Shown here: positions 17,275-34,633 of the stretch, one piece after another
Numbering within the stretch: the stretch's first letter is position 1
Layout of the letters: each line of letters starts with the position of its first letter
Assembly: GCA_016928395.1 (NCBI GenBank)
Contig: JAFGKV010000038.1
Span: forward strand, 1-35,125
Length of the DNA stretch: 35,125 nt
Direction: 5' to 3'
Source: Candidatus Fermentibacterota bacterium
GTDB lineage: Bacteria; JAFGKV01
Notes under the pieces: generated by a model
Database searches by the model: none
Seen by the model: only the letters and a program-made list of their open reading frames with translations
What the model was told of the DNA's origin: nothing
Made by a program: the position numbers and the translations under genes

Positions 17275-19092
17275 ATGAACACCATGAAAGCTCATTCGAC
17301 GGAGATGTTCGGAAAGAAGATAGGGAGCAGCTGCGTATGGCGCGCATCCGGTGTGGTGTCCGCGCAGATGTGCGAGTCATCCCCGGATAGCTGCGAGGGG
17401 TGCCCGATCTATACGCGCCTTGGCAAGGCGGCATCTCATAGGCAGACTCAGTTTTTCGGCCGCGACTACTTTGATTCGTGCTCGGTCAATGCCTGCGCCG
17501 TCCCAGGCCAGTCGTGCCCGTTCGCGGGACCGTGCATGGCGAATTGGTCGCGGACCAACACTCCGGCGCTGCGGATGCTGACGATGATCGGGATCGGGGC
17601 TCTGTCCATTGGCGAGAACGCATCACTGATCCAGCAGACAACCCGTCGCACCGGTTTGCACGCGGATCTGGTGAGCAGGGTGTTCCAGTTGAGGAACCTG
17701 GTCATGCTGGGGCCTGAGTCGGGGCTGTCTCCCTCTGATCTCGCCCTGTTTACCGCAGAGGAACAGTTCGCCATGGTTGCCGCCGCGTCGTTTCTCGACT
17801 GCCTCGATTCCCTGGATGTGGCCGCGTTTGCCGAAGCCATGATGGAACGCGTACTCCAGCACGGAAACGGATCGCCTTCGCTTTCCGTGAAGCACGATCC
17901 TCCCGACCTGCGGGAGACTCTTCTCGCCCTGCAGGGTTTGGCCGTCTTGGATGTGCTCCCCGCGTTCGACATCGAGATTCTCGGCGAAATCCATGCCGGC
18001 ATGGCTGCCCTGCCGTACCCCTCTATGGCGTTGGCCCAGATGGCCCTCGCCCTTCAGAGGGCCATACAACCCGCGACCTTCAAATCGCCCGCCCTCGAAC
18101 AGAGAACCGTGGAACGCGCCGCCACTCTCGTCACGTTCGCCGATTGGCTGATGGGCAGCGTCTATGACGGTCAGCCGGTCACCTTCCCCGAATTGGCATC
18201 GGCCGTCATCGTGACCCGAACCTTGGGGGCGGTTCCCGACGATGGGGCGATCCCCGCCGGTCGTCTGCTGAAGGCCGAGCTGCTCCGAATGGTCGGAAAT
18301 GAGCGACTGGATATGAGCGGGGCGCACTCGCTGCTGGCAGGGATCGTGGCCTCCGGCGTAAAGCTCGACCCCGACGAGCGCACCGCATTTTCCCGGGCGG
18401 TGGTGCTCTCGTTCCAGGCCCATTTCACGAAACTCGGAGACATGCGGGCCGATCCGGTGTCGCTGATCGCCTACCTGGGGGCCGACAACCTAGTTCGTGA
18501 CCGCAGCCAGTTCGCGGCCATCGCGTCCATGGAGGCGCCCGAGGTCGAGGCCGATCCTGCATTGCTGGGATGCGAGCTTCCGGTCGATCGTTTCTACACC
18601 CGCGGGCATACCTGGATGCACCCGAGTCGAGACGGCGCCCTGCGGGTGGGACTTGACGATCTGGCGGGCCACTTGATCGGTCAGGTCGACGCAATCGAGA
18701 TGCCCGAGCCGGGGAGCCAGTTGCGCCGAGGGAAGCCGGCGCTGCGTTTGATCCGAGGCGGCGAGTCCGTCGACGTATGTGCGCCGATGGACGGCGAAGT
18801 GGTCCTCGTCAACCAGGCGATCATCGACGCCCCCGGCATTCTGCCGGATCAGCCCTACGACGGCGGGTGGCTGTTGTCCATTCGTCCCAAGGTGTCTGGA
18901 GGCAGTCTTTCAGGCCTGCTCTTCGGGGAGAATGCCCGAGAATGGCAGACGACGGAGGCGCGGCGGCTCCAAGAGATGTTCCAGGGCGACATGGCCACTG
19001 CCGCCGACGGCGCAACGCTGGCTCGCGACGCGCTGGCCACCATTCCCGGTGTTCGGTGGTCCAAGGTACTCCGCGCGTTCCTTACGCCGTAA
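17275..19092 (+). CDS. cysteine-rich protein with C-terminal GcvH-like domain lacking the lipoyl lysine
   Basis: A 605-residue protein, apparently cytoplasmic, of unknown function. The N-terminus has eight cysteines: Cys20, 33, 40, 43 in the pattern C-x12-C-x6-C-x2-C, then Cys69, 74, 81, 87. These could bind one or two Fe-S clusters or zinc. A long helical middle (about 100-425) shows no family I recognise. Residues 438-537 match the glycine-cleavage H protein (FYTRGHTW, VGLDDLAGHLIG, MDGEVVLVN, GGWLLSI). Aligned without gaps to the E. coli GcvH lipoyl loop, the lysine is Gly496, so it should not be lipoylated. The same cysteine motif and the same change occur in the NuoG-like protein of the facing operon, which suggests a shared partner. 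Its sigma-54 promoter and strong ribosome binding site suggest tight, strong induction. It overlaps amzA convergently by 11 bases. Confidence 0.85.
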   Translation: MNTMKAHSTEMFGKKIGSSCVWRASGVVSAQMCESSPDSCEGCPIYTRLGKAASHRQTQFFGRDYFDSCSVNACAVPGQSCPFAGPCMANWSRTNTPALRMLTMIGIGALSIGENASLIQQTTRRTGLHADLVSRVFQLRNLVMLGPESGLSPSDLALFTAEEQFAMVAAASFLDCLDSLDVAAFAEAMMERVLQHGNGSPSLSVKHDPPDLRETLLALQGLAVLDVLPAFDIEILGEIHAGMAALPYPSMALAQMALALQRAIQPATFKSPALEQRTVERAATLVTFADWLMGSVYDGQPVTFPELASAVIVTRTLGAVPDDGAIPAGRLLKAELLRMVGNERLDMSGAHSLLAGIVASGVKLDPDERTAFSRAVVLSFQAHFTKLGDMRADPVSLIAYLGADNLVRDRSQFAAIASMEAPEVEADPALLGCELPVDRFYTRGHTWMHPSRDGALRVGLDDLAGHLIGQVDAIEMPEPGSQLRRGKPALRLIRGGESVDVCAPMDGEVVLVNQAIIDAPGILPDQPYDGGWLLSIRPKVSGGSLSGLLFGENAREWQTTEARRLQEMFQGDMATAADGATLARDALATIPGVRWSKVLRAFLTP

Positions 19093-19624
19093 GGAAGTCG
19101 TCGAGCAGTATCCGGCAGTACCGGCACAACTGAGTGGACTTGGCGTCGATGCGCGCCATTTCCCGGGATGCGGTCATCACACAGGAGGGATCCGCGCAGT
19201 GGGTAAGGCCGAAGGTGTGGCCAAGCTCGTGGATCCCTTCCTTGATGACCCGGCTGATGAACAGGGGACGATCACACGGGGGTTGGGTTCCCCGCGACAG
19301 GTTGCCGAGGCGGTGTGTGGACACAATGGCGGCCTTTCCCGGGAGCATGGCCTCTCCGAAGATGTAGCGCAGGATGGGCGTGAAGAGGTCGGCAGTCGTA
19401 ATGCCCAGCAGCCGGACGGCATCGCGGTCTGACGAGGCGAGGTGCTCCAGGATGCGCGTGGCCTGATACTGTCCCCTGTGCATGTCCAGCGCGGAGACCG
19501 GCAGCTTCTCGGCGGCGCCGATGCGGCACTGGAAGGGATACGTCGTGGGAACCTCGGCACACAGGGATGAGAGAAGCTCCTGGTCCGTGATGTCCAGGGC
19601 GACAAGCTCAATGACGGAACTCAT
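19082..19624 (-). CDS. amzA: archaemetzincin-type zinc metalloprotease
   Basis: A 180-residue protein of the archaemetzincin family. The motif HELGHTFGLTHC (His132, Glu133, His136, His142, Cys143) followed by Cys148, Met150 and the pair Cys167/Cys170 matches the family signature HExxHxxGxxHCx4CxM...CxxC, in which three His bind the catalytic zinc and four Cys a second zinc. Family members are aminopeptidase-like metalloproteases, most common in archaea and scattered in bacteria. No signal peptide is present, so it is cytoplasmic. It overlaps the response-regulator gene by four bases (ATGA), so it is translationally coupled to it. Its 3' end overlaps the GcvH-like gene by 11 bases. Its target is unknown. 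Confidence 0.92.
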   Translation of the reverse strand: MSSVIELVALDITDQELLSSLCAEVPTTYPFQCRIGAAEKLPVSALDMHRGQYQATRILEHLASSDRDAVRLLGITTADLFTPILRYIFGEAMLPGKAAIVSTHRLGNLSRGTQPPCDRPLFISRVIKEGIHELGHTFGLTHCADPSCVMTASREMARIDAKSTQLCRYCRILLDDFLTA

Positions 19625-20967
19625 CGCTCACGGGAGAGCTCGTACTTCTTGATCTTGGCGTACAGCGTCCCCCTGTCGATCTTCAATGCCTCGGCGGTAC
19701 GACTGATATTCCAGTCGTACTGCTCGAGCTTTCTGGCGATGAAGTCCCGCTCCCAGGAGTCGAGAGACTCATCCGCCGGCACGGCGATGTCGCTCTGCAG
19801 TGCGATGGGCAGGTCGTCGGGCATGATCCGCTTCTGTTTGCCCACCACCAGCGCACGCTCGATGGCGTTCTCCAGTTCCCGAACATTGCCGGGCCACGCA
19901 TGATTCAGTAAGAGCTGCATGGCTTCAGGAGAGATTGAGCCAACCCTCCTGTTCAAGCGTATGCACAGCTTCTCCAGGAAATGCTCGACCAAAGCCGGGA
20001 TGTCCTCCCTGCGCTCACGCAGGGGCGGTATGTGAATCTGAATGACGTTCAGACGGTAGTAGAGGTCGTGACGGAAGAGCCCTTCCTTCGCGGCCTGCTC
20101 CAAGTCGCGGTTGGTGGCGGCGAGGACCCGGAAATCAGTCTTCACATCCTTGACGCCTCCCACTCGCCGGAAGACCCGCTCCTGGAGCACTCGAAGAAGA
20201 TCGATCTGCATCTTCGGGCTGGCATCACCGATTTCGTCCAGGAAGAGCGTACCCCCCGCGGCAATCTCCAGTAGCCCTTGTTTGGATCTATCGGCCCCGG
20301 TGAAGGCGCCTCTTTCGTAGCCGAAGACCTCACTCTCCAGGAGCGATTCGGTGAAGGCGCCGAAGTTGACGCCGACGAAGAGCCCGTCGGAACGGGAACT
20401 CTTTTCGTGAATCGTGCGCGCCAGCACCTCCTTGCCCGTGCCGCTCTCTCCGGATAGCAGCACCACCGAGTCGGTGGCTGAAACATCCTCCACCAGCTCA
20501 AACACCTTCACCATGGCGGGTGATCGCCCGATCATCGGGCCATAGCTTCCGCACCTTCTTACCTCTTGTTTGAGCATCATGTGCTCTCGCCGGATGACCT
20601 GCTCATCAAGGATCCGCTCGATGAGCAGCCCGATCTCCATGGGATCGAATGGTTTCACCACATAGTCAACAGCACCCAGCTTCATGGCGCGCACCGCGGA
20701 GTCAATGGATCCGTATGCGGTCATCATGAGCACGGGAGTGTCGGGGTCTTCCTCTTTCACCCGCTCCAGCATCTCTATCCCGCTCATTCCGGGCATCTTG
20801 ATATCGACAATCAGCAGATCGAATGACTCTGTCCTGAGCATCTCCAGGCCCGGTTCCGCGGCCTCGGCTACCTCCATCTGGTAGCCGTCTCGTCGGAGCA
20901 GATCCCCCAGAGAGATGCGAATGGAGAGCTCATCATCCACCACGAGTATCTTTGTCTTCCTTCGCAT
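19621..20967 (-). CDS. NtrC-family sigma-54-dependent response regulator
   Basis: The 448-residue regulator has three domains in order. The receiver (about 5-120) has the acidic pair Asp11/Asp12, phosphoacceptor Asp55 and Lys105. The AAA+ domain (about 143-375) has Walker A GESGTGKE (173-180), the sigma-54-contact loop GAFTGA (220-225) and Walker B LFLDEIGD. The C-terminal Fis-type helix-turn-helix (about 408-446, ISRTAEALKIDRGTLYAKI) binds DNA. The phosphorylated form should activate sigma-54 promoters; the good candidate in this window is at 17224. GGAGGAG precedes the ATG by nine bases. The sensor kinase gene lies 47 bases upstream and the pair is clearly a two-component system. Confidence 0.96.
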   Translation of the reverse strand: MRRKTKILVVDDELSIRISLGDLLRRDGYQMEVAEAAEPGLEMLRTESFDLLIVDIKMPGMSGIEMLERVKEEDPDTPVLMMTAYGSIDSAVRAMKLGAVDYVVKPFDPMEIGLLIERILDEQVIRREHMMLKQEVRRCGSYGPMIGRSPAMVKVFELVEDVSATDSVVLLSGESGTGKEVLARTIHEKSSRSDGLFVGVNFGAFTESLLESEVFGYERGAFTGADRSKQGLLEIAAGGTLFLDEIGDASPKMQIDLLRVLQERVFRRVGGVKDVKTDFRVLAATNRDLEQAAKEGLFRHDLYYRLNVIQIHIPPLRERREDIPALVEHFLEKLCIRLNRRVGSISPEAMQLLLNHAWPGNVRELENAIERALVVGKQKRIMPDDLPIALQSDIAVPADESLDSWERDFIARKLEQYDWNISRTAEALKIDRGTLYAKIKKYELSRER

Positions 20968-21014
20968 GGTCTAGATCTCCTCCGCCGGTGGCGCCGCGGG
21001 GGATGAAGCGACTG

Positions 21015-22937
21015 TCAATCAGACGCCACGGGCAGCGTGAACGTGAACGTGGATCCGTGTCCCTCGCGGCTCGTCACCTTCATGGTTCCGCCATGTTGGC
21101 GGATGATACCGTAGCTCACACTCAATCCCAGGCCGGTTCCCTGCCCCACCGGCTTGGTGGTGAAGAATGGATCAAAGATCATCGAAAGATGCGCTTCCTT
21201 GATGCCGCAGCCCGTATCCGTGATCGAGACCACCACCTCATCGTCTTCCTCCCTTGAGGAAATAGTCAGCGTGCCTCCCTCGGGCATGGCCTCACAGGCA
21301 TTGAGTGAGAGATTCACCAGTACCTGCTGGATCTGATTGGCGTCGGCCTGCACCGCCCGAAGACCCGGCGTGAGCCGCTCTTCTATGGCGAGCTTGTGAC
21401 ATTCCCGCTGATTGCGCAAGAGCAGCAGCCATCTGTGGATGACCTCGTTCACATCAAGCCGAGTCATCTCGCCGGGCGACTCCCGGGCAAAATCCAAGAG
21501 CCCCCGAACGATCTCTCGAATCCGGGAGGTCTCCTTGTGCATGATCTCGAGGTACTCCCGGCCCTTCGGGGTGATTCCCGCTTCGCTCTTCAACAGGTGC
21601 ACGAAGGTGAGCAACCCGGTGAGGGGGTTGTTGATTTCGTGGGCGATGCCCGCCGCCATCCGCCCGACCGAGGCCAGTTTCTCGCTCTGCCCGATCTGTC
21701 TGAGGGCTCTCTGTTCAAGAGCCTCCTCTCTCTCCGCCACGGCGTCGGCCATTTGATTGATCGCCCGACAGAGAAGACCCATCTCCCCCGGAGGATTCAT
21801 CCTCACCCGGGCCGAAAGATCTCCCTTTGCCACCCGGTCGGACATCTCGACTATCCGGCCGATGGGCCGAAGCACCGATCTGCTGGCCAGAGTCAGCAAA
21901 AGCAGGCTCAGCACCGTGGTCGCCGCGACCACCACGAGAAACGACCCGATGGCCACCCTGCGCGTGTGGACGAACGGCGTCTCCAGCATGCCGACCCCAA
22001 GGGCGCCAATGACTTGGCCTTCAGCATCCACGATGGGCTCATACGCGGTGATGTACCACTCATCCACCACCAGCGCCCGATCCGCCCAATTCTGCTCTCT
22101 CTCCAGCACTCTTCTGTTGACTTCCGGGCTCAGACGCGTGCCGATGGCCCGTGAGCCGTCTTCGTTCTTCATGCTGGTGGTAATTCTGAGGCCCCCCTGG
22201 AACACGGTTGCGGCTCCGGCCGCGACGCCCCGGTAGGTGTCGTCCTGGAACAGGTCCCCCTTGATCTCGTCGACGATCTCGTAACTCTGATTTAGAAGTC
22301 TGGCTCCGTAGAGGAAGCCGACGCATTCCCCTCCCCGTTCCAGGTCCACCAACGTGACAGCCGCCCCGATGACCATGCCATCGCGGTATGCCTCTTCTTC
22401 GCCGGCGGGGGTGATCGAATCGCCGGCTGCTTTCAGGGACGTCTGCCGCGAGAGGCTCTCTCCTTCTCTCACCAGGTTCTCCCACGGGATGATCGCGGTG
22501 CCCCTGACGCACTTCTTCTCCCGCAGAGCTCGGGAGACTATGGGATTGTATGAGGCGTCATCCCCTGCCTCAGCCGGGTTGTTCTCGCGGTAGATAACGC
22601 GGCCGCTTGTGTCCAGCAGGGAGAGCATATCCAGCTTTCCCTCCTGACGGATATGCTGCAACAGCCTCTGCAGCTCGGCGCGGTCCCAGCTCGCCAGCGG
22701 GGTGGGGAGCGAGCGTCGCGCAGCCGTTGCCCGCAGGAGCAGACAGATGTCAGTGACATTCCGGTCGTAGAGTTTCCTGGCCGAGTTGAGGCCCACGCGC
22801 ACCCTGGTCTGAACCTCCTCGGTGAGCATGCCACTTACGCGAAGCAAGATCACCAGTGACAGGGCGGCATTGGTAAGCAGGATGATGGCGATCGAACCAA
22901 CAGTCAGTCGAAACCAGACAGACTTCTTCCAACTCAT
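21015..22937 (-). CDS. sensor histidine kinase with periplasmic Cache-type sensor, HAMP and HisKA domains
   Basis: The 640-residue membrane kinase has a helix at about 10-33 and a second at 329-352. Between them is a periplasmic sensor of about 290 residues that looks like a Cache domain (LLDTSGRVIYRENN, and a second part with WYITAYEPIVDAEGQVIGALGVGM). HAMP follows (about 350-405, SVLRPIGRIVEMSDRVAKGDLSARV), then HisKA with His433 in GIAHEINNPL, and a HATPase domain with NACEAM, DTGCGI and GTGLGLS. Family knowledge says such Cache sensors bind small organic ligands such as carboxylates or amino acids; the ligand here is unknown. It is the partner of the downstream sigma-54 regulator and lies 63 bases after the NuoF-like gene. 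Confidence 0.94.
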   Translation of the reverse strand: MSWKKSVWFRLTVGSIAIILLTNAALSLVILLRVSGMLTEEVQTRVRVGLNSARKLYDRNVTDICLLLRATAARRSLPTPLASWDRAELQRLLQHIRQEGKLDMLSLLDTSGRVIYRENNPAEAGDDASYNPIVSRALREKKCVRGTAIIPWENLVREGESLSRQTSLKAAGDSITPAGEEEAYRDGMVIGAAVTLVDLERGGECVGFLYGARLLNQSYEIVDEIKGDLFQDDTYRGVAAGAATVFQGGLRITTSMKNEDGSRAIGTRLSPEVNRRVLEREQNWADRALVVDEWYITAYEPIVDAEGQVIGALGVGMLETPFVHTRRVAIGSFLVVVAATTVLSLLLLTLASRSVLRPIGRIVEMSDRVAKGDLSARVRMNPPGEMGLLCRAINQMADAVAEREEALEQRALRQIGQSEKLASVGRMAAGIAHEINNPLTGLLTFVHLLKSEAGITPKGREYLEIMHKETSRIREIVRGLLDFARESPGEMTRLDVNEVIHRWLLLLRNQRECHKLAIEERLTPGLRAVQADANQIQQVLVNLSLNACEAMPEGGTLTISSREEDDEVVVSITDTGCGIKEAHLSMIFDPFFTTKPVGQGTGLGLSVSYGIIRQHGGTMKVTSREGHGSTFTFTLPVASD

Positions 22938-23000
22938 TCGCCAGGGCCCCCAGAGCCGTGTCTTTCGAGAGGTGTGCTCAGTTTGACTATTCGATTCGCC

Positions 23001-24872
23001 TCAGTGTACGATTACCGCGTCGTGAGGGCACACGTCGCGGCAGATGCCGCATTTGATGCACAGATCGACGGCGATGCTGTGGGGTTTCTTGTTCTCGCCG
23101 GAGATGGCGTCCTGGGGGCAGTTCCTCGCGCACAGGGTGCAGCCGGTGCACCTGGCTGGATCGATGGAGTACGTGATCAACGCCTTGCACACTCCAGCGG
23201 GGCATCGCTTCTCGCGCACGTGGGCTTCGTACTCGTCCCGGAAGTACCGGAGGGTGCTCAAGACGGGATTGGGAGCCGAACCACCCAGGGCGCAGAGCGA
23301 GCATTCCTTCACCGTGTTGGACAGTTCCTCCAGCAGCGTGATCGTGTGTTCATCGGCCTCGCCATTGCAGATATCGTTGAGCAAGGTGCTGATCTGGGTA
23401 AGGCCCTCGCGGCAGGGCAGACACTTGCCGCACGACTCCCCAATGAGGAAATCGATGAAGTATCGGGCGATGTCAACCATGCAATCGGTCTCATCCATCA
23501 CGATCATGCCGCCTGATCCCATCATCGAGCCGACCCTCGTGAGTTGATCGAAGTCAACCGGCAAGTCGAGCAGTTCTTCCGGGATCACTCCCCCTGAGGG
23601 GCCCCCCGTCTGTACGGCCTTGAACTTCTTCCCTTTGGGGATTCCGCCCCCGATGTCGAACACGATCTCCCGCAAGGTGATCCCCATGGGGACTTCCACG
23701 AGCCCAGTGTTGTGGACCTTGCCCACCAGGGAAAAGACCTTGGTTCCCTTGCTGCCGCCCCAGGGGTTCTCGGAGACGTCACCCGTGCCGATGGAGGTGA
23801 ACCATTGGGCGCCTCGGAGGATGATCGGGGGTACGTTGGCGTAGGTTTCCACGTTGTTCAAATTGGTGGGGCGATCCCATAGTCCATGTTCGACCGTATG
23901 GATGTACTTGGCGCGCGGTTCACCGGGGCGCCCTTCCATGGAGGCCATCAGTGCGCTGGACTCGCCGCATACGAATGCTCCCGCCCCCCGGTGGATGCTG
24001 ACTTCAAAATCGAAGCCTCGGTCGAAGATGTTCTCTCCCAAGAGGCCGTATTCCCGCGCGTCGGCAATGGCCTTTTCCAGGCACTCTCGAGCCAGGGGAT
24101 ACTCATTGCGGATATACACATACCCCTTGCGGGCGCCGATGGCGTAGCCAGCGATGGCCATTCCCTCAAGCACCGCGTGCGGATCACACTCGATGATTGT
24201 GCGGTCCATGTATGCGCCCGGATCACCTTCGTCGGCATTGCAGACGATGTACTTGGGATGCCCGGGGGCCTCTCGGCAGGTCTTCCACTTGATGCCGGTC
24301 GGGAACCCACCGCCACCGCGCCCACGAAGTCCCGAGGCGATCAACTCCTGGATGACCTCTTCCGGCGTCATCGTGCTCAGCGCTGTGGACAATGCCCGGT
24401 AGCCATCTCGGACGATGTAGTCGTCGATAACCTCCGGATCAATGATGCCCCGATTGCGCAAAACCAGCAGACGCTGCTTGCCGAAAAAGCCAATCTCGCT
24501 GATCAACGGCACAGTGCCGGTCTGGGGTGGGAGTGTATGCACACGCTCTTGCAGCGGTCGTCCCTGGAGGACGTGCTCCTGGACGAGGCGCGGTACATCA
24601 TGCTCCGAAAGACCCTGATACACAATCTCCCCCGGGTTCACCACCATGACCGGGCCCTGACCGCAGTGCCCGCGGCAGCCACTCATGCCGATAGCGACCT
24701 CGTGGGACAAACCATGGCGGGTGATTTCCCGCTCGAGTGCCTCCTTGACTCTGTAGGAGCCTCGCCCCGCGCAATCGGTTCCAGCACACAGCATCATGTG
24801 TATGCGATAGCCGCCGGGTATTGCGTCTCCGGTAGTATCACGTCCCACGGTATCGTGTGGTGTCGCGCTCAT
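23001..24872 (-). CDS. nuoF: NuoF/HndC-like NAD(P)H-binding flavoprotein
   Basis: This 623-residue protein has three parts: a thioredoxin-like [2Fe-2S] domain (Cys29, 34, 66, 70); the flavoprotein core with loop GRGGGGFPTG (184-193) for FMN and NAD(P)H and NADEGDPGAY, plus [4Fe-4S] ligands in ESCGKCLPC (Cys481, 484, 487) with the fourth in CSLCALG; and a C-terminal two-cluster ferredoxin (Cys575-585 and Cys605-615). This is the layout of HndC/HydB and other soluble NADH-dependent oxidoreductases, not of the membrane complex I subunit, which lacks both ends. It would exchange electrons between NAD(P)H and the HdrA flavoproteins of the operon. It overlaps the HndB-like gene by four bases (ATGA). 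Confidence 0.95.
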   Translation of the reverse strand: MSATPHDTVGRDTTGDAIPGGYRIHMMLCAGTDCAGRGSYRVKEALEREITRHGLSHEVAIGMSGCRGHCGQGPVMVVNPGEIVYQGLSEHDVPRLVQEHVLQGRPLQERVHTLPPQTGTVPLISEIGFFGKQRLLVLRNRGIIDPEVIDDYIVRDGYRALSTALSTMTPEEVIQELIASGLRGRGGGGFPTGIKWKTCREAPGHPKYIVCNADEGDPGAYMDRTIIECDPHAVLEGMAIAGYAIGARKGYVYIRNEYPLARECLEKAIADAREYGLLGENIFDRGFDFEVSIHRGAGAFVCGESSALMASMEGRPGEPRAKYIHTVEHGLWDRPTNLNNVETYANVPPIILRGAQWFTSIGTGDVSENPWGGSKGTKVFSLVGKVHNTGLVEVPMGITLREIVFDIGGGIPKGKKFKAVQTGGPSGGVIPEELLDLPVDFDQLTRVGSMMGSGGMIVMDETDCMVDIARYFIDFLIGESCGKCLPCREGLTQISTLLNDICNGEADEHTITLLEELSNTVKECSLCALGGSAPNPVLSTLRYFRDEYEAHVREKRCPAGVCKALITYSIDPARCTGCTLCARNCPQDAISGENKKPHSIAVDLCIKCGICRDVCPHDAVIVH

Positions 24873-25252
24873 GCCGTATGCTCGCTTCCGATGCCCAGAG
24901 CGTATTCCTCGACGATAGAGCCTTCCAGAACATGACGGTCGAAGATCAGCCCCGCCTTCTTCTCATCGAGATCAACATACTTCACGGGGGCCTGGCCCAT
25001 GACCTGAACGGTGATCATCGGCTCTCGGCTGCAGTAGCCCGCACAGCCGGTGGAGGTAACGGTGACGTCACTGATGCCGGCGTCTTGCACGAGACGCATC
25101 ACCTCAGCCTTGATTCTCTGTGCGCCGGCGGAAATCCCGCAGGTGCCCAGGTGTACGGTGATTTTGACCCTGCCCGCGCCTTGCCCAACGGTCATGGCCT
25201 TCGTTCGCCTCGCCGCGATTGTCTCGAGATCTTCGATCTTCAGTTTGGGCAT
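24869..25252 (-). CDS. HndB-like thioredoxin-fold [2Fe-2S] ferredoxin
   Basis: A 127-residue protein resembling HndB and the small ferredoxin subunit of NADH-dependent bifurcating enzymes. The fold is thioredoxin-like, with GTCGISAGAQ (Cys38) and TGCAGYCSREP (Cys70, Cys74). Only three cysteines are seen; a classical CxxxxC first pair is absent, so the fourth ligand is uncertain. The N-terminal stretch MPKLKIEDLETIAAR is a typical helical lead-in of this family. It sits between NuoE- and NuoF-like genes, as hndB does in hnd operons. GGAGG lies six bases before the ATG. Confidence 0.88.
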   Translation of the reverse strand: MPKLKIEDLETIAARRTKAMTVGQGAGRVKITVHLGTCGISAGAQRIKAEVMRLVQDAGISDVTVTSTGCAGYCSREPMITVQVMGQAPVKYVDLDEKKAGLIFDRHVLEGSIVEEYALGIGSEHTA

Positions 25253-25273
25253 TGATTGCCTCCGAAAAGGACC

Positions 25274-25771
25274 TCACGAGGACTGCGCATGCTTCCTCAG
25301 TTCTTCGACGATCTTGAGTGTCTTCACCGTCGAGGTATCGCCATGGACTTCGCCCGCCACGGTCACCACAGGTGCCAAGCCGCAGCATCCCAGGCAGCGC
25401 ACCGATTCCACGCTGAAAAGAAGATCCTGAGTCGCCTGGCCTTCGCGTTCCACCCCCAACTCGCGCATGACATTCTCCAGAATGCGCGACCCTCCCTTGA
25501 CATGGCAGGCAGTGCCGGTACACACGGCAATGGGATACTTTCCTCGAGGCTCCAGCGTGAATCCCTTGTAGAAGGTGGCGATGTGGAACACTCGATTCAA
25601 CGGTACATCCAATTCCTCGGAGAGTCGTCGAGCTGCCTCTTCAGGAATATGGCGATAGTGTTCCTGCACGTCTTGGAGCATCTCGATCAAGTAGCTGCTG
25701 TCGCGCTTCCAGCGATCCATGATTTCATCGAGCGGTGTATCGTACACCTGATTCGCCAACGGTTGTTTCAT
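25274..25771 (-). CDS. nuoE: NuoE/HndA-like [2Fe-2S] subunit
   Basis: A 165-residue protein of the NuoE (24 kDa subunit) family, the usual length. The N-terminal helical bundle (about 15-60) includes LIEMLQDVQEHYRHIPEEA, followed by the segment VFHIATFYKGF. The thioredoxin-like C-terminus binds [2Fe-2S] through CTGTAC (Cys84, Cys89) and CLGCC (Cys126, Cys130). In HndA, HydC and related enzymes this subunit supports the NAD(P)H-oxidising flavoprotein. It overlaps the NuoG-like gene by four bases (ATGA), so the two are coupled. Confidence 0.95.
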   Translation of the reverse strand: MKQPLANQVYDTPLDEIMDRWKRDSSYLIEMLQDVQEHYRHIPEEAARRLSEELDVPLNRVFHIATFYKGFTLEPRGKYPIAVCTGTACHVKGGSRILENVMRELGVEREGQATQDLLFSVESVRCLGCCGLAPVVTVAGEVHGDTSTVKTLKIVEELRKHAQSS

Positions 25772-27057
25772 GGTGATGTAGCCTCGGATTCGAAGTGCTC
25801 CTTGCTCAATTCGACAAAGTCCGCATGGCTGATTCGGTGGGCAAATCCCGGGGTCAGCTCAGAATGGCCCATCGCTTCGAGTGCATGGGCGAGCCTCTGC
25901 CACTGCTCGTCGATCCAGGCCTTGACCTGCTCCCGGCCCACTAAGCGGCGACTCTGAAGGTAGAAGTCATCAGGCTGGATCGTGAAGAGCCAGCCACGGC
26001 CATAGCAGTCTTCGTCAAGCAAAGCAGGATCGTCCACCACTGCCCCGTTGACATGGGTGACCGTACCTGAGACCGGCGCCCGCAGGGTCAGGCTGTGCCC
26101 ATCGCTGGTCACCGTAGCCGCCGCGTCCCCGGCGCGTATTGTGTGACCGGGCATAGCGTGCATAATGACTTTTCCGATGGGGCCGACCAGCTGCCGGGCG
26201 AAATCATCCATACCCACGCGGGCATGATCGCCGGTCATCGTGGCCCAGGCATGACCTCGTGAATAGAACCGGTCTTCCACCACGTCAAAGGGGCCGACCT
26301 TGATCGGCGTCTGACGCAATCCCGGGGCGATGGCGAGAATCGGATGGGTGCCGAACTCCTCGAAGATGCGTTGGTCGACCTCGCACTCCGCGCAGCGGAA
26401 GTCATTGGGGCAGATCTTGTATGATATCAAACCCATCCGCGCATAGCGGCACATACGTTTGTCGGAACCGAGCTCCCGGCGCCAGCGTTCGGTGGTCTTC
26501 TCCTCCATGTGCATCGCGCCGGTCGGGCATACATAGACGCATGCCCCGCAGGCAATGCAGGACTCGGGATCTACCGACCATGGGGTCCCCACGATCCGTA
26601 CATTGCCGCGGCCGACAAAGCTGAGTGCCGACGCGCCCACGATTTCATCGCATACGCGCACGCACAGACCGCACATCACGCAATCACTGGCGGCCATGGT
26701 GTGGAATCGAGAGGTGGTCACGCCCACCGATGCGGCCAATTCGCGAACCTTGGGCACGTCGGGACAGCGGGCGAGCATGAGTTCGGCCAGGATCCTGCGG
26801 TGTTGACGGATGCGCTCCGTGTCCGTGAATACCTCAAGGCCTTGCTCCACCGGGAAGTTGCACGAGGTGACCAAACGGGTGCGTCTGCCCCGCTTCACCT
26901 CGACGATGCACATGCGGCAGACGCCATAGGGCTCCAGCCCGTCCATGTGGCAGAGGGTCGGCACGTCGATGCCGAGGCCGCGGATCGCATCCAAAAGGGG
27001 TGATCGGTGAGGGGCCGTTGTTTCCCGACCGTCGATCGTGAGGCGCACCTCGGTCAT
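25768..27057 (-). CDS. NuoG-like Fe-S protein fused to a Cys4 motif and a GcvH-like domain
   Basis: The 429-residue protein starts as a NuoG/HydG-type protein: plant-type [2Fe-2S] (Cys36, 47, 50, 66), a region with ARCPDVPKV, then two [4Fe-4S] clusters (Cys126, 129, 132, 136 and Cys167, 170, 173, 177). The molybdopterin-type domain of true NuoG is missing. In its place are a four-cysteine motif (Cys203, 216, 222, 225; C-x12-C-x5-C-x2-C) and a GcvH-like domain (about 262-361: FYSRGHAW, VGMDDFARQLVG, RAPVSGTVTHVNG, GWLFTI). Gap-free alignment to GcvH puts Gly320 at the lipoyl lysine. The Fe-S part likely wires the NuoEF module to the Hdr part. What the GcvH-like domain binds is unknown. It overlaps hdrB by four bases (ATGA). 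Confidence 0.9.
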   Translation of the reverse strand: MTEVRLTIDGRETTAPHRSPLLDAIRGLGIDVPTLCHMDGLEPYGVCRMCIVEVKRGRRTRLVTSCNFPVEQGLEVFTDTERIRQHRRILAELMLARCPDVPKVRELAASVGVTTSRFHTMAASDCVMCGLCVRVCDEIVGASALSFVGRGNVRIVGTPWSVDPESCIACGACVYVCPTGAMHMEEKTTERWRRELGSDKRMCRYARMGLISYKICPNDFRCAECEVDQRIFEEFGTHPILAIAPGLRQTPIKVGPFDVVEDRFYSRGHAWATMTGDHARVGMDDFARQLVGPIGKVIMHAMPGHTIRAGDAAATVTSDGHSLTLRAPVSGTVTHVNGAVVDDPALLDEDCYGRGWLFTIQPDDFYLQSRRLVGREQVKAWIDEQWQRLAHALEAMGHSELTPGFAHRISHADFVELSKEHFESEATSP

Positions 27058-28070
27058 GGTGCGCCACGCTTTCCGGCGGTCCTCGCTCGTATACCCTTCT
27101 CTTCCGGTTCGCAGAATGCCTCCACCAAGAAGCGGGAGATGTCGTCAATCATCAGGTCGCCATGGGCGGCCTGCTGGAGAGTGGCCAGGCAGATGGGGCA
27201 CATGGTGGCCACACCTTTGCCCTCGGCATTCTTCAGTTGCTCGACCCGCTTCTTCCCAATCTCGTGGGCCTTCGAGGGGAACAGCGATTCCACCGGGCCT
27301 CCACAGCAGAATGTCAGTTTCCGGCAGTCCTCAGGCTCCCTGACTCCAAACCCCGCCCTCTGCAGCAACTGACGCGGCTCCTCGATGACATTTTCGTACC
27401 GGGCGTAGACGCATGAATCGTGGATCGTGATGTCGTTCTCGACCTGTCTGAGAGGCCGGAGGGTATCGGTAGCAGCCAGAACTTCAAGGTAGCTCTTGAC
27501 CTCGATATCGAAGCCATCGATGACCGTCGGATACACTGAGCGCAGCATGTTGGTGGTGTGCGGATCGATGGTAATAAGCGTGCGAACGCCATGACTCTTG
27601 AGCACGGCGTAGACCTTTCGGGCGTGGGCGGCAAAAACCCTGTCCGCCCCCATATCGAATGCCAGGGCCCCGGCGTAGAGATCATCTTTATAGAGGTAGC
27701 CGAATTGCACCCCCGCCTGAAGAAGAAGGCGGGCAATATCGCGGATGGTGCGCGCGAATCGTTTCTGATCCGACGGTTTGGGCATGAACATGATGGATGA
27801 CACGTTGACTATCCGGTTGAAAAAGCGGCCCAGCCCGACGAATCGCCCCAAGAATGAATTCTCCATCATTCCCATGACGTTCACTGCTGCGATCATATAG
27901 GGAAGCAGTTGGTACATCGAGCCGGTGTACAGAACTGTCTCGCCGCCGGCAGGAATCCCCAGTGAGTCGGCCCATTTGACGGCTTGTCTCCCCGAGATCG
28001 GGAAGACCGACTTCCTCTTCTCGAGATTATCCATCATGATGCCGATCACGGGCCCGGTGGGAAGCGGCAT
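27054..28070 (-). CDS. hdrB: HdrB/HdrD-like protein with only one intact CCG domain
   Basis: The 338-residue protein belongs to the CCG (DUF224) family of heterodisulfide reductase HdrB, HdrD and GlpC. The C-terminal CCG domain is complete: HDSC (Cys220), CRKLTFCCGGP (Cys249, 255, 256) and MCPICLATL (Cys291, 294). The first CCG domain is recognisable (VLYTGSMYQLLPY in place of the usual Tyr-x-Gly-Cys start) but holds no cysteine at all before residue 220. In HdrB both CCG domains bind noncubane [4Fe-4S] clusters and split heterodisulfide; with one site the chemistry may differ. RBS AAAGGAG is seven bases before the ATG. It is 15 bases after hdrC, as in hdrCB pairs. Confidence 0.88.
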   Translation of the reverse strand: MPLPTGPVIGIMMDNLEKRKSVFPISGRQAVKWADSLGIPAGGETVLYTGSMYQLLPYMIAAVNVMGMMENSFLGRFVGLGRFFNRIVNVSSIMFMPKPSDQKRFARTIRDIARLLLQAGVQFGYLYKDDLYAGALAFDMGADRVFAAHARKVYAVLKSHGVRTLITIDPHTTNMLRSVYPTVIDGFDIEVKSYLEVLAATDTLRPLRQVENDITIHDSCVYARYENVIEEPRQLLQRAGFGVREPEDCRKLTFCCGGPVESLFPSKAHEIGKKRVEQLKNAEGKGVATMCPICLATLQQAAHGDLMIDDISRFLVEAFCEPEEKGIRARTAGKRGAP

Positions 28071-28085
28071 GAGGGTGCTCCTTTG

Positions 28086-28388
28086 CTACAGCTTGAAGAC
28101 TTCCTTGCCGATATAGGTGCGCAGGAACCGTACGTTCTCTGCGATGTGCACGTTGGCCGTGCAGTTGGCCTCACACATCTTGCATAGCAAACACTGGTAA
28201 ATCGACTCGGTGTGCTCCAGCACCTTCTCTTCAAGTCCCAAGAGGACACAGTGAAAGAGCTTTCGGGGCAGCAGGTCTATTTCCATGGGGCACACGGCGG
28301 TGCAGACACCGCAGTCCATGCACTCCGTGGCGTTGAACTCCTTTGATGTTATCACTTTGCTGAGAAATGCCGCGTTCACCTGCGCCAT
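28086..28388 (-). CDS. hdrC: HdrC-like two-cluster ferredoxin subunit
   Basis: A 100-residue protein with two [4Fe-4S] motifs: CMDCGVCTAVCP (Cys23, 26, 29, 33) and CLLCKMCEANC (Cys66, 69, 72, 76). The second lacks the usual proline after its last cysteine. This is the compact form of HdrC, which passes electrons from HdrA to HdrB. No membrane segment is seen, so it is a soluble subunit. A good ribosome binding site (GAGGAGAGG) precedes the ATG. It lies between the small winged-helix gene and hdrB. Confidence 0.93.
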   Translation of the reverse strand: MAQVNAAFLSKVITSKEFNATECMDCGVCTAVCPMEIDLLPRKLFHCVLLGLEEKVLEHTESIYQCLLCKMCEANCTANVHIAENVRFLRTYIGKEVFKL

Positions 28389-28399
28389 TGCCCTCTCCT

Positions 28400-28639
28400 C
28401 TACTCGCTCTTCACCAATTCATACTGGAAGTAGTCATCGTCGGGGTCTTTGACCTCTGCGATGAGGCCATACTTCCTGGCGGCCATCACCCAGTACATCA
28501 CCTCGTGGACCGGAAAGCCCAAAGACTCGGCGATCTCCGGGACGGTCAGGGGCCCATTCTCCAGCGCGGCCAGCACCTTGTCGCGCATCACCATCTCGTC
28601 TCGTATGACCTCGCGCGGGTCCCGAAGTCGCCTATCCAC
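28400..28639 (-). CDS. small winged-helix protein inside the hdr operon
   Basis: A 79-residue protein starting at GTG 28639, with GGAGG six bases upstream. Residues 20-62 form a helix-turn-helix-like pattern (VLAALENGPLTVPEIAESLGFPVHEVMYWVMAARKYGLI) like that of MarR or ArsR winged helices, followed by a charged tail. It overlaps the end of hdrA by eight bases. It may bind DNA as a regulator of its own operon or, as some small winged-helix domains do, bind protein. Its place in the middle of an electron-transfer operon is unusual. Function is not known. Confidence 0.75.
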   Translation of the reverse strand: MDRRLRDPREVIRDEMVMRDKVLAALENGPLTVPEIAESLGFPVHEVMYWVMAARKYGLIAEVKDPDDDYFQYELVKSE

Positions 28640-30368
28640 GGGAGGCCTCCACCATATCGATCATCATGGCGTCAATCATCGCGCGGATCTGCCCGTCGGT
28701 GTAGCCCTTCACCCCCAGCGCCCCCTGCGGGCACGCCGGCACGCAGGCGCCACACCCCTTGCACAATGACGTGTTGACTTCGGCGATCTCCTTGTCCCCA
28801 AAGGAGATCTTCTCGATAGCGGAGTAGGGACAGCTCCCGACACATTCGCCGCACCATGTACAGGTTTCCGGATCCACCACAGCTATCAAGGGCTCCAACT
28901 CGACATAGCCCTTCTTCAGGAGGGCTGCCGTCTTTGCCACGGCGGCCAATGACGATGCGACGCTTTCGGCCGAGTTGCGGGGCGCCTGGGCCGTACCGGC
29001 GATGAAGACGCCGTCGATGACGGTCTCCACTGGCCGCAGCTTGGGGTGGATCTCCTTGAAGAAACCATCCAAGCCCACGGGAACTTTGAGGACGTCATTC
29101 AAGGCCTGGTTCGGTCGAGGCTCCATGCCGGTCGCCAACACCACCAGATCGGTCTCGATATCCAGCTCCTCACCGGCCATCAGCATGTCCTTGACCTGGA
29201 TTCGGAAGCGCCCGTTGGATTTCTCCACCTGAGGCGGATCCTCGCCATCAAACCTGATGAAGACGGCACCCTTCTGACGCGCGTCCTGGTAGAGAAGCTC
29301 ATACTTTCCGTACGTACGGATATCTCGGAAGAGATGAAACTGGTGCACTGCGGGGGATAGCTCGTGCGCCAAAGAGGATGCATGCATGGCCGCATTGCAG
29401 CAGTAACGCGAGCAATACATGTTTGGTGTGTCTTTCTGGGAGCTTCCTCGCGAACCAACGCAGTAAATGTAGGTCACCGTGTCAACCGGCCTGCCTCGAT
29501 ACGTGAGCCCGCCCTCGCTCCCATCGAGCAGGCGTTTGAACTCGGTCAGTGTCAGGACGCCGTCGGTACCATACGAATATTCACCGCTGGCGGGTTCGTA
29601 CGGGACGAACCCCGTGGTGGTGATGATCGAACCAACACTGAGAGTCACCGGCTCACCCTTTACATCGAGTCTGACCGTGAAGTCTCCTACGCTCCCCGAC
29701 TTCTCCCGGAGCTCGGCGTGGGTGTAGATGTGCACGTTCTCCCGTAGTCCGGCTTCTCGAACAAGGTCAGCGATCAGATCCTGTCCTCGACGATCATGGG
29801 GATACATCCGACCAAACTCTGCGACCCAGCCGCCAACCTTGTCACTCTTCTCGGCCACAAACACGCTGAGGCCAAGATCGGACAGCGCCAATGCAGCCCG
29901 GAGCCCGGAGATCCCGGCACCAATCACCAGGGCACGCGGAACGGTCTCGATCCGAGTCTTGATCAGAGGCTCCGTGAGGCGTGCCTTGGCAATGCCGGCC
30001 TTGACGAGATTGATGGCTTTCTCGGTAGCCTGGTCAGGCACATCGGTGTGCGCCCAGGAGCACTGCTCCCGCAGGTTCACCTGGATATACAGATAGGGAT
30101 TCAAGCCTGCCCGTTCGGCGACACCCCGGAAGGTGAACAGGTGGAGGGTCGGGGAGCACGAGGCAACTACCAAGGCGTCGAGCCCTTGCTGCTGGATGTC
30201 GTCTATCATCTCTTGCTGGGCCGCGTCGGAGCAGGCAAACATGGTAGTCTTGGCGACCTTGACTTCCTCTTCGCCGGCGATCGCATCACGGACCGATTCG
30301 CAGTTCACATAGTCGGAGATGTTTCCACCGCAGTAACAGATATAGACGCCGATCTTCCTGGTGCTCAT
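28632..30368 (-). CDS. hdrA: HdrA-like flavoprotein (first type, without the inserted FeS segment)
   Basis: The 578-residue protein has the HdrA N-terminus (IGVYICYCGGNISDYV, then NLREQCSWAH), the FAD motif GAGISG (150-155), the CC-containing segment YCSRYCCNAA (about 318-326) and two C-terminal [4Fe-4S] motifs (Cys503-513 and Cys536-546). HdrA flavin is the site of electron bifurcation in methanogens. The segment after the FAD site, where HdrA normally carries TLDCxxC and a further ferredoxin, is replaced by GRMYPHDRRGQDL, so those clusters are missing. They are present in the neighbouring HdrA, which makes the two look like complementary halves. It starts by a four-base overlap with that gene. 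Confidence 0.94.
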   Translation of the reverse strand: MSTRKIGVYICYCGGNISDYVNCESVRDAIAGEEEVKVAKTTMFACSDAAQQEMIDDIQQQGLDALVVASCSPTLHLFTFRGVAERAGLNPYLYIQVNLREQCSWAHTDVPDQATEKAINLVKAGIAKARLTEPLIKTRIETVPRALVIGAGISGLRAALALSDLGLSVFVAEKSDKVGGWVAEFGRMYPHDRRGQDLIADLVREAGLRENVHIYTHAELREKSGSVGDFTVRLDVKGEPVTLSVGSIITTTGFVPYEPASGEYSYGTDGVLTLTEFKRLLDGSEGGLTYRGRPVDTVTYIYCVGSRGSSQKDTPNMYCSRYCCNAAMHASSLAHELSPAVHQFHLFRDIRTYGKYELLYQDARQKGAVFIRFDGEDPPQVEKSNGRFRIQVKDMLMAGEELDIETDLVVLATGMEPRPNQALNDVLKVPVGLDGFFKEIHPKLRPVETVIDGVFIAGTAQAPRNSAESVASSLAAVAKTAALLKKGYVELEPLIAVVDPETCTWCGECVGSCPYSAIEKISFGDKEIAEVNTSLCKGCGACVPACPQGALGVKGYTDGQIRAMIDAMMIDMVEASRG

Positions 30369-33073: not shown

Positions 33074-33074
33074 C

Positions 33075-33509
33075 TCAGCCTGCCTTCCCTGGAGATCCAA
33101 GCTTCTTGAGGTCAGTGAAGAAGTTCTTCATGTGCCGTTGGAAGGCCTCTGCGCATACGGAGCAGATGGCAGCCATCTTCAGCCGCTCCGGCTTCAGACC
33201 GTGTTCTCTGAGAAGGTTCTGCGCCCGTTCCATCACCTTGGCGGTCCTGTCCGTGCAGTCAGGGAGGAACGGGCAGTCCGTTCCGTCGGCGGCAACGAAC
33301 ACGCCGTCAAACCCGTGGGTGAGCGCGTAGAGAACCCACTCCGGCCTGATGCCGCTGGAGCAGGGAAGCGGAATAGAGATGGCGGTGGGAGGATAGTGCA
33401 TGTGGGAACTGCCGGCCATATCAATGCCGATGTCGGAAATGGTTACCGTCGAGAACACGAGAATCCGTGGCCGGAAGTCGTCTCCCGCCATCCCACCGCC
33501 ATGCTCCAT
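33075..33509 (-). CDS. mvhD: MvhD/FlpD-like hydrogenase iron-sulfur subunit homologue
   Basis: A 144-residue protein of the MvhD family, the [2Fe-2S] adaptor that hands electrons from hydrogenase or formate dehydrogenase to HdrA. The conserved core is visible: PCSSGIRPEWVLYALTHGFDGVFV, then GTDCP and a long helix MERAQNLLREHGLKPERLKMAA. The N-terminal cysteine pair that opens the usual family (FxCNWCxYxGAD) is absent; VFSTVTISDIGIDMAG stands there. Remaining cysteines are 50, 79, 85, 116 and 119. So cluster binding is altered or lost. No hydrogenase is encoded nearby; its electron donor is likely the NuoEF module. ATG 33509 or the later ATG 33491 are both possible. Confidence 0.85.
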   Translation of the reverse strand: MEHGGGMAGDDFRPRILVFSTVTISDIGIDMAGSSHMHYPPTAISIPLPCSSGIRPEWVLYALTHGFDGVFVAADGTDCPFLPDCTDRTAKVMERAQNLLREHGLKPERLKMAAICSVCAEAFQRHMKNFFTDLKKLGSPGKAG

Positions 33510-33511
33510 GG

Positions 33512-33769
33512 CTACTTGCCTCGTCTGACGAAGATGCGCCAGAATCCGGCATCCTCTACCGTGCCGAGATATTCATGGCCCTTCTTCTCTGCCCATCGTG
33601 GCACGTCCTTGTTGGTGCTCGCGTCCGAGGAGAGCAGTTCCATGACCTGTCCCACCTGCACGGTAGTGATGCCCTTCTTGACTTCCAGCAGCGGTCCGGG
33701 ACAGGCAGTCCCTCGTGCATCAACCAGCTTGTCAGCCTTGATCGCCTTCAGTTCCTCCAGTGTTGCCAT
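33512..33769 (-). CDS. tusA: TusA-family sulfur carrier protein
   Basis: An 85-residue TusA/SirA-like protein with the signature ARGTACPGPLLEVKKG; Cys23 in CPGP is the residue that carries persulfide sulfur. The fold is a two-layer alpha/beta sandwich. TusA relays sulfur to DsrEFH, to tRNA thiolation or, in sulfur oxidisers, to sHdr and DsrAB. Its place right behind a DsrE-like gene and before HdrA genes supports sulfur relay into the Hdr system. AAGGGG precedes the ATG. The gap to the MvhD-like gene is two bases. Confidence 0.95.
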   Translation of the reverse strand: MATLEELKAIKADKLVDARGTACPGPLLEVKKGITTVQVGQVMELLSSDASTNKDVPRWAEKKGHEYLGTVEDAGFWRIFVRRGK

Positions 33770-33784
33770 GGTCTTACCCCTTCT

Positions 33785-34144
33785 TTAGCAGAATGTCAGT
33801 ACGATGTCGGCATCTTCCGCTTCGTCTACGAATGTCGCCACGCCTCCGCACTCGACGCCCTCAATGAGGTCCTCTTCCTTGCAGCCTACGATGGGAAACG
33901 CCGCCGAGCAGGCAATGAGCTTGGCATTTGCTTCACGGGCGATGTCGATGAATTGCGGCAATGACTTGGGCGCGCCTTCGAGCTTGATCTTCTCGGCGCC
34001 GCCCTTGCGGATAATGTTCAACCCCTCCATGGTGAAGAAGAGCACAAGCTCCATGTCCATGGCAATGGCGCCACTCCCTAGCATGAATGGGGGAAACGCC
34101 TTCTGAGGCTTATCGGATCCGCAGAATACCACCATCTTGGCCAT
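33785..34144 (-). CDS. DsrE-family protein (DsrE2/DsrE3-like)
   Basis: The 119-residue protein has the DsrE/peroxiredoxin-like alpha/beta fold: MAKMVVFCGS, MELVLFFTMEGLNIIRKGGA, AKLIACSAAFPIVGC, and EDLIEGVECGGVATFVDEA. Cysteines are 8, 79, 88, 99 and 119; Cys79 (in LIACS) is at the conserved sulfur-binding position. The protein ends with Cys as its very last residue. Such proteins take and pass persulfide, usually with TusA, which is the next gene downstream. The N-terminal membrane segment of some DsrE2 proteins is absent, so it is soluble. The ribosome binding site GGAGG is five bases before the ATG. Confidence 0.9.
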   Translation of the reverse strand: MAKMVVFCGSDKPQKAFPPFMLGSGAIAMDMELVLFFTMEGLNIIRKGGAEKIKLEGAPKSLPQFIDIAREANAKLIACSAAFPIVGCKEEDLIEGVECGGVATFVDEAEDADIVLTFC

Positions 34145-34306: not shown

Positions 34307-34633
34307 CTACGTGCCCGTTCCGATCTCTATGTCCTGATAGGTCCGGAGCTTGTCTATCTGTTCCAGCAAGCCTTGGCGAATCAGCCTCGAAGCCTCCAGG
34401 AATCGCGGGTTGGATACCCGGTAGAGGACCTCGCGTCCATCCTTGCGGAAATCGACTACCCCCTTGTAGCGCATTACTCTCAGATGCTGAGATGCGATCT
34501 GCATCGTCACACCGAGGCTCTCGGCGATCTCGCCCACCGACCGCTCCTCGTCTCCCAAAAACCACATAATGCGCAGACGCTTCGCATCCGAGAAGACGGC
34601 ACACAAATCGGCGTGTAGTTCGAAAATATCCAT
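34307..34633 (-). CDS. ArsR-family winged-helix regulator
   Basis: A 108-residue ArsR/SmtB regulator: ADLCAVFSDAKRLRIMWFL, recognition region VGEIAESLGVTMQIASQHLRVMRYKGVV, and the wing DGREVLYRV. It should act as a homodimeric repressor. The ELCVCDL metal site is absent and the only cysteine is Cys11, so it is not a classical arsenic or metal sensor. The two-cysteine layout of the sulfur-responsive ArsR regulators (SqrR, sHdrR) is also absent. Its position at the head of the tusA-hdr-nuo genes suggests it controls them, by analogy with sHdrR. No strong ribosome binding site is seen before the ATG. Confidence 0.92.
   Translation of the reverse strand: MDIFELHADLCAVFSDAKRLRIMWFLGDEERSVGEIAESLGVTMQIASQHLRVMRYKGVVDFRKDGREVLYRVSNPRFLEASRLIRQGLLEQIDKLRTYQDIEIGTGT

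Follow-up and report, generated by a model that had tools for sequence, protein, structure and literature searches.

GcvH-like domains without the lipoyl lysine in two Cys4 proteins of an Hdr- and Nuo-type locus, and the family to which they belong

A window of 35,125 nucleotides (the whole stretch of DNA analysed here) from Candidatus Fermentibacterota bacterium encodes two proteins in which a motif of four cysteines (Cys4) accompanies a C-terminal domain resembling GcvH, the glycine cleavage H-protein. One is a free protein of 605 residues; the other is a NuoG-like subunit of 429 residues. The C-terminal domains of the two proteins are members of a single large family of GcvH fold that lacks the lipoyl hairpin and retains the core and a tail of its own. 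A sequence-only reading of the window had given the right coordinates for the pair, but did not state that the NuoG-like gene lies on the minus strand. The two genes and their domains (called Lys-less below, for the missing lipoyl lysine) are:

17275..19092, plus strand: 605-residue protein, with Cys4 motif (C20, C33, C40, C43), second cysteine set (C69, C74, C81, C87), helical middle (about 95-430), Lys-less GcvH domain (434-562) and conserved tail to 605
18574..18960, plus strand: Lys-less GcvH domain of the 605-residue protein (residues 434-562), Gly496 at the position of the lipoyl lysine
25768..27057, minus strand: 429-residue protein, with NuoG-like Fe-S subunit (1-192), Cys4 motif (203-225), Lys-less GcvH domain (257-391) and tail
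25885..26289, minus strand: Lys-less GcvH domain of the NuoG-like protein (residues 257-391), Gly320 at the position of the lipoyl lysine

Cysteine motifs, GcvH matches and fold

The shared motif C-x12-C-x5/6-C-x2-C noticed in the sequence-only reading was confirmed in both proteins. It reads C20-x12-C33-x6-C40-x2-C43 in the 605-residue protein and C203-x12-C216-x5-C222-x2-C225 in the NuoG-like protein, and was yielded by 0 and 6, respectively, of 5000 shuffles. A second cysteine set in the 605-residue protein (C69-x4-C74-x6-C81-x5-C87) had been overlooked; it is kept in two orthologues. Orthologues of this protein were 68% (L055/L085) and 52% (L087) identical to it.

Pfam GCV_H (PF01597) recognised the C-terminal domain of both proteins above its curated cut-off (2.2e-17 over residues 440-554 of the 605-residue protein; 2.6e-18 over residues 264-383 of the NuoG-like protein), and the domains contain FYTRGHTW and FYSRGHAW. 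They are 36% identical to each other and, judged by sequence, are paralogues inside the Lys-less family. Both missed the cut-offs of the models for functional GcvH (57 and 60 bits against 115.85 for TIGR00527; 70 and 72 against 117 for NF002270) and that of NF045810, a GcvH-related protein of sulfate reducers (25 and 39 bits against a curated 150). Alignment placed Gly496 and Gly320 at the lipoyl lysine, as had been claimed. The lipoyl hairpins of both domains are free of lysine, and each domain has just two lysines in all (487 and 539; 296 and 379). No Lys-bearing GcvH was found in the window; one ordinary GcvH with an intact IESVKSVSD is encoded elsewhere in the same genome.

AlphaFold models of the GcvH domains were confident, with predicted local distance difference test (pLDDT) values by block mostly of 82-95 in the NuoG-like protein and 84-94 in the core of the 605-residue protein. 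Compared with the solved H-proteins 1htp and 3a8k, the models aligned with Z 19.4 (131 residues, root-mean-square deviation 1.4) and Z 18.5 (126 residues, 1.4), both alignments spanning the whole length of the GcvH domain; Foldseek matched the NuoG-like protein to 1onl with a target-normalised TM of 0.93. The expectation of a GcvH fold unable to carry lipoate at the usual site thus held, given the Lys-free hairpins and the match of the models to H-proteins, and these domains cannot act as lipoyl swinging arms at that site. For the helical middle of the 605-residue protein, mean pLDDT was 58, too low for its fold matches (Z <=8) to be usable.

The N-terminus of the NuoG-like protein contains a NuoG-type 2Fe-2S and 4Fe-4S region, by family searches and structure match. 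A molybdopterin oxidoreductase-like domain had no Pfam match at E 1 anywhere in its 429 residues. As a description of anatomy, replacement of the molybdopterin domain by the GcvH domain is correct, but short subunits of NuoG type that lack a molybdopterin domain are already known (9mqx_A, 247 residues).

A GcvH-fold family without the lipoyl hairpin

To collect homologues, we scanned one genome of each species for the motifs FY[ST]RGH[AT]W and RVG[ML]DD[FL]A[RG]. The scan returned 41 loci: 12 of ordinary GcvH with ESVK and 29 of an RVG[LM]DD[FL]A kind, none of which had ESVK. Further genomes raised the set to 147 distinct GcvH-type domains (39 ordinary, 108 of the RVG[LM]DD[FL]A kind), counts that describe the sample and not nature, as the scan motifs favour the latter kind. 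Lysine occupies the lipoyl column in 37 of the 39 ordinary domains and is missing from 105 of the 108 others, which carry G, D, S, E, N, A, R, Q, H, T or P there; one orthologue of the 605-residue protein has Asp. A functional role for glycine was rejected, since the site varies freely. A sequencing error or a single recent loss has next to no probability: nothing was found in its favour, and the family-wide alignment, in which the lysine is absent across many genomes, rejects it.

The loss extends to the whole hairpin. Its E, S and K are conserved at 100, 92 and 95% in the ordinary set; in the Lys-less set no residue there exceeds 35%. With the lipoyl arm gone and no conserved residue in its place, a covalent carrier role at the hairpin is unlikely. 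Outside the hairpin, the core H, W, G, P, G, N and W stand at 96-100% in the Lys-less set, an Asp (91%) takes the place of a Thr, and most members continue into a tail, typically ADGG...W...FL. In principle the family could be a functionless, degenerate GcvH remnant, as its lost active site would suggest; conservation of the core, the Asp and the tail across distant groups, and the fact that many genomes match the family model several times, make this very improbable.

In a FastTree tree the Lys-bearing domains grouped together with two exceptions, the split having a support of only 0.56. Each window domain has RVG[LM]DD[FL]A and the tail, lacks the lipoyl lysine, and scored higher with the family model than with an ordinary GcvH model (139 against 59 and 137 against 66 bits, the window domains being among the sequences from which the family model was built). 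The three family members with lysine at the lipoyl column (in L064, L122 and L136) have differing hairpin contexts.

A few relatives deserve separate mention. Two short GcvH-like proteins, L079:1489-1935 (minus strand) with ESGKW and L122:1110-1592 (minus strand) with QSRKW, look intermediate between the families and, from their hairpins, may be lipoylated. L091:5320-6276 (minus strand) has two tandem GcvH domains with Glu at both lipoyl sites, and its scores fall between those of both families. L157:8963-9499 (plus strand) is a GcvH of ordinary look with ESSES in place of ESVK.

The family occurs in several bacterial groups, beside two-component regulators, archaemetzincin and complexes of anaerobic electron transfer, and is apparently undescribed so far. 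In the openly accessible literature searched, no account of a Lys-less GcvH family or of its link to archaemetzincin or two-component genes was found. A plasmid search found nothing that matched the Cys4-GcvH query over most of its length, and the matches listed were ordinary GcvH or unannotated. Because the GcvH-like part matches only GcvH models in the libraries searched (Pfam above, NCBIfam below cut-off), automatic annotation is likely to call family members glycine cleavage H-proteins, a job they cannot do. Recognition of the family would end this recurrent mis-annotation.

Gene neighbourhood and origin of the block

The genes around the two proteins were assigned by family search unless stated otherwise:

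19082..19624, minus strand: archaemetzincin (Peptidase_M54), E 3.6e-24, with a complete HELGHTFGLTHC-x4-C-x-M...CRYC signature read in translation
19621..20967, minus strand: NtrC-type sigma-54 response regulator
21015..22937, minus strand: histidine kinase with Cache-type sensor region, HAMP, HisKA and HATPase
23001..24872, minus strand: NuoF-like subunit with 2Fe-2S N-terminal and 4Fe-4S C-terminal domains
24869..25252, minus strand: small 2Fe-2S thioredoxin-like protein (weak family match)
25274..25771, minus strand: NuoE-like subunit
27054..28070, minus strand: HdrB-like protein with a single recognisable CCG domain
28086..28388, minus strand: HdrC-like 4Fe-4S protein
28632..30368, minus strand: HdrA-like protein, 578 residues
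30365..33100, minus strand: HdrA-like protein, 911 residues, with an inserted GltD-like NAD(P)H oxidoreductase unit
33075..33509, minus strand: FlpD/MvhD-like protein, E 6.8e-28
33512..33769, minus strand: TusA-like sulfur carrier, named from its translation without family search, 88% identical to its L014 counterpart
33785..34144, minus strand: DsrE-like protein
34307..34633, minus strand: ArsR-family regulator

The archaemetzincin consensus signature is given in PMC3427221 as HEXXHXXGXXHCX4CXMX17CXXC, and the window protein has it, by family search and translation. Genes from DsrE to archaemetzincin overlap or are closely packed, the sole larger gap being 243 bases (28389-28631) between the 578-residue HdrA and HdrC; the L014 locus also has a gap of similar size. 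The first cysteine motif of the HdrB-like protein looks degenerate. A scan of the whole window for the sigma-54 promoter consensus found no site at 10/12, with weaker sites remaining possible. Outside the block, 14416-16605 (plus strand) encodes a 729-residue protein with a CopD-like membrane part, a cytochrome b5-like domain and a multihaem cytochrome region. Gene content and established knowledge of the families suggest that two types of HdrA, HdrB, HdrC, FlpD, NuoE, NuoF, the NuoG-like subunit, TusA and DsrE would fit a soluble flavin-based electron-transfer complex with a sulfur-relay pair.

The same gene order (DsrE, TusA, FlpD, HdrA, HdrA, HdrC, HdrB, NuoG-GcvH, NuoE, 2Fe-2S, NuoF, kinase, regulator, archaemetzincin) was found in L014, from the deltaproteobacterial metagenome-assembled genome CSMAG_2928, at 62-88% identity. 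L015 holds the block from NuoG-GcvH onward, with a further GcvH-like protein and a 605-residue orthologue past the archaemetzincin. In L124 the order is kinase, regulator, archaemetzincin, a double-Cys4-GcvH protein, an HdrA-type protein, a FlpD/MvhD-like match, methylenetetrahydrofolate reductase, a MinD/CooC-like ATPase, NuoE and NuoF; L043 and L034 have multihaem cytochromes and exported-looking 4Fe-4S proteins instead.

A controlled comparison was made within one sample of 118 genomes of the deltaproteobacterial phylum, about 30 of which have a full-length Lys-less match, often several per genome. We compared 20 Lys-less with 16 ordinary GcvH loci, picked by domain and not by neighbours; related genomes were kept unthinned and the p values are indicative. 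Two-component genes lay near 18 of the 20 Lys-less loci as against 3 of the 16 ordinary ones (p 2e-5), and archaemetzincin near 13/20 as against 0/16 (p 5e-5). The ties of the family are with genes for a histidine kinase, an NtrC-type regulator and archaemetzincin, and not with sulfur oxidation or LbpA. The sequence-only reading had tied the domain to an Hdr-TusA-DsrE set of the sulfur-oxidising, LbpA-like sort; this did not hold, since TusA and DsrE are absent near most Lys-less loci (the 29 scan loci and the roughly 30 of 118 genomes alike), and specificity for sulfur oxidation was rejected.

A related possibility is that the domain is itself an LbpA-like carrier of the sulfur-oxidising sHdr pathway, with lipoate on another lysine. 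The nearby Hdr, TusA and DsrE genes speak for it. The lysine is strictly conserved in all 95 LbpA proteins (PMC6067878), and neither window domain has it, with Lys-free hairpins and so few lysines overall; no lipoate ligase was recognised by eye among the window open reading frames read, no family search having been made. Such a carrier is highly improbable.

The flanks of the block are native: flanking genes share 84% and 63% identity with G001, a genome of the same genus, and a misbinned contig is thus unlikely. The survey of the phylum covered three genomes; in the two others, ordinary GcvH was seen but no Lys-less GcvH. G001 is only about 82% complete. Given native flanks and this absence, the block (about 19082-34144) was probably acquired, or else lost in relatives. 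Its 62-88% identity to the deltaproteobacterial locus would be compatible with horizontal acquisition.

Domain architectures, possible role and known systems

Six architectures were seen: (i) two Cys4 units and GcvH, in Deltaproteobacteria (L016-L018, L020, L022); (ii) an N-terminal hydrophobic segment, receiver domain and GcvH; (iii) a hydrophobic segment and GcvH; (iv) NuoG-like, Cys4 and GcvH, in L014, L015 and the window; (v) the 605-residue type with its helical middle; and (vi) HdrA, 4Fe-4S (Fer4), FlpD, molybdopterin-dinucleotide-binding and GcvH domains fused in 977/988 residues (L128:9107-12037, minus strand; L136:7136-10099, plus strand; Pfam was run on L128). Receiver fusions make up about 18 of the 108 family proteins (by sequence pattern, with Pfam on one). 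In the double-Cys4 type, the first unit, CxWxxxGVVSYKLCDNNYDCPTC, resembles that of the 605-residue protein and the second, CRYMLTGEVxRKICPNAYECGNC, that of the NuoG-like protein. The window proteins look like two family members with the Cys4 units split over two partners.

Perhaps the Cys4 motif does the actual work, as a Zn, Fe-S or thiol/persulfide site that trades electrons or sulfur with HdrB or with TusA/DsrE, while the role of the GcvH domain is just to position it. The motif is enriched in the family (42/108 proteins, compared with 35/3252 other open reading frames) and both kinds of unit recur in the double-Cys4 relatives; however, 66 of the 108 proteins have the GcvH domain without this motif, so the domain should have a job of its own, and most loci lack TusA and DsrE. 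We regard this explanation as rather unlikely. Also unlikely is that the domain serves as a two-component sensor, binding a small ligand (a lipoyl or octanoyl compound, persulfide or nucleotide) without a covalent lysine bond. Receiver-GcvH fusions, two-component neighbours, the conserved core and the family-specific Asp agree with such a sensor; a hairpin without conserved polar residues does not, nor does the presence of the domain on NuoG- and HdrA-type subunits.

The reading we favour, tentatively and as one that falls a little short of probable, is a non-lipoylated docking or regulatory module linking complexes of the Hdr-FlpD-NuoEFG type to the unit of kinase, NtrC regulator and archaemetzincin. 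The fusions to receiver and Hdr-type domains, together with the steady kinase, NtrC and archaemetzincin neighbours, point to a protein-protein module between electron transfer and regulation. The GcvH domain fused to the NuoG-like subunit would sit on the soluble Hdr-FlpD-NuoEFG electron-transfer complex. The free 605-residue protein, with its GcvH domain, helical region and two cysteine sets (putative metal, Fe-S or thiol sites), would partner the adjacent kinase, NtrC regulator and archaemetzincin. Together they may make transcription responsive to the redox or sulfur state of the complex, the signal presumably running in that direction. Docking, as suggested in the sequence-only reading, is thus plausible.

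Several points weigh against this proposal. Gene neighbourhood is evidence of co-selection, not contact, and a non-covalent ligand elsewhere on the GcvH domain is possible. The excess of HdrA near Lys-less loci was not significant (6/20 as against 1/16, p 0.10). In the L014 genome, the 605-residue orthologue lies on another contig, away from the Hdr locus, and the structure models leave the Cys4 regions of both proteins unresolved. A broader version, which we consider doubtful, would make the Lys-less pseudo-lipoyl family a general signalling module of anaerobes that, with Cys4 units, senses Hdr/Nuo-type or respiratory complexes and signals to kinase, NtrC regulator and archaemetzincin, one window copy having been built into the complex.

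Overall, the phenomenon is real, reproducible and wider than first supposed, and docking or regulation is the tentative best guess for its role. The biological role of archaemetzincin is little known, and the family would give it a conserved bacterial gene context. A link of Hdr-type electron-transfer complexes to transcription would become directly testable, and a lipoyl-domain fold reused in signalling without its cofactor would be of interest to enzymologists and microbial physiologists.

Among known systems, the GcvH H-protein (PF01597, TIGR00527) shares the fold over its full length and the core H, W, G, P, N and W. The window domains differ from it in lacking the lipoyl lysine and ESVK hairpin, in their extra C-terminal tail and in being fused to other domains, and no gcv genes were seen in the window. 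The LbpA proteins of sulfur oxidisers with sHdr, described with two strictly conserved cysteines (PMC6067878), are likewise GcvH-like and encoded near Hdr genes, but there the lysine is kept and lipoylated, whereas it is absent here and the usual partners of the Lys-less family are two-component and archaemetzincin genes. The double-Cys4 proteins are of the same family, with the same kinds of Cys4 unit, tail and kinase-regulator-archaemetzincin neighbours; they carry both units in one free protein, unlike the window, where the units are divided between the 605-residue protein and the NuoG-like subunit. Short NuoG-like subunits of electron-bifurcating enzymes (9mqx_A, HoxU, the HydA N-terminus) have the same 2Fe-2S and 4Fe-4S N-terminal region (residues 1-129 are 33% identical to 9mqx_A, of a tungsten aldehyde oxidoreductase, Z 13.8) but no Cys4-GcvH C-terminus. 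Finally, the soluble HdrABC-MvhD(FlpD)-NuoEF-type complexes of anaerobes share the set of HdrA, HdrB, HdrC, FlpD, NuoE and NuoF, to which the window adds TusA, DsrE and a NuoG-like subunit fused to GcvH.

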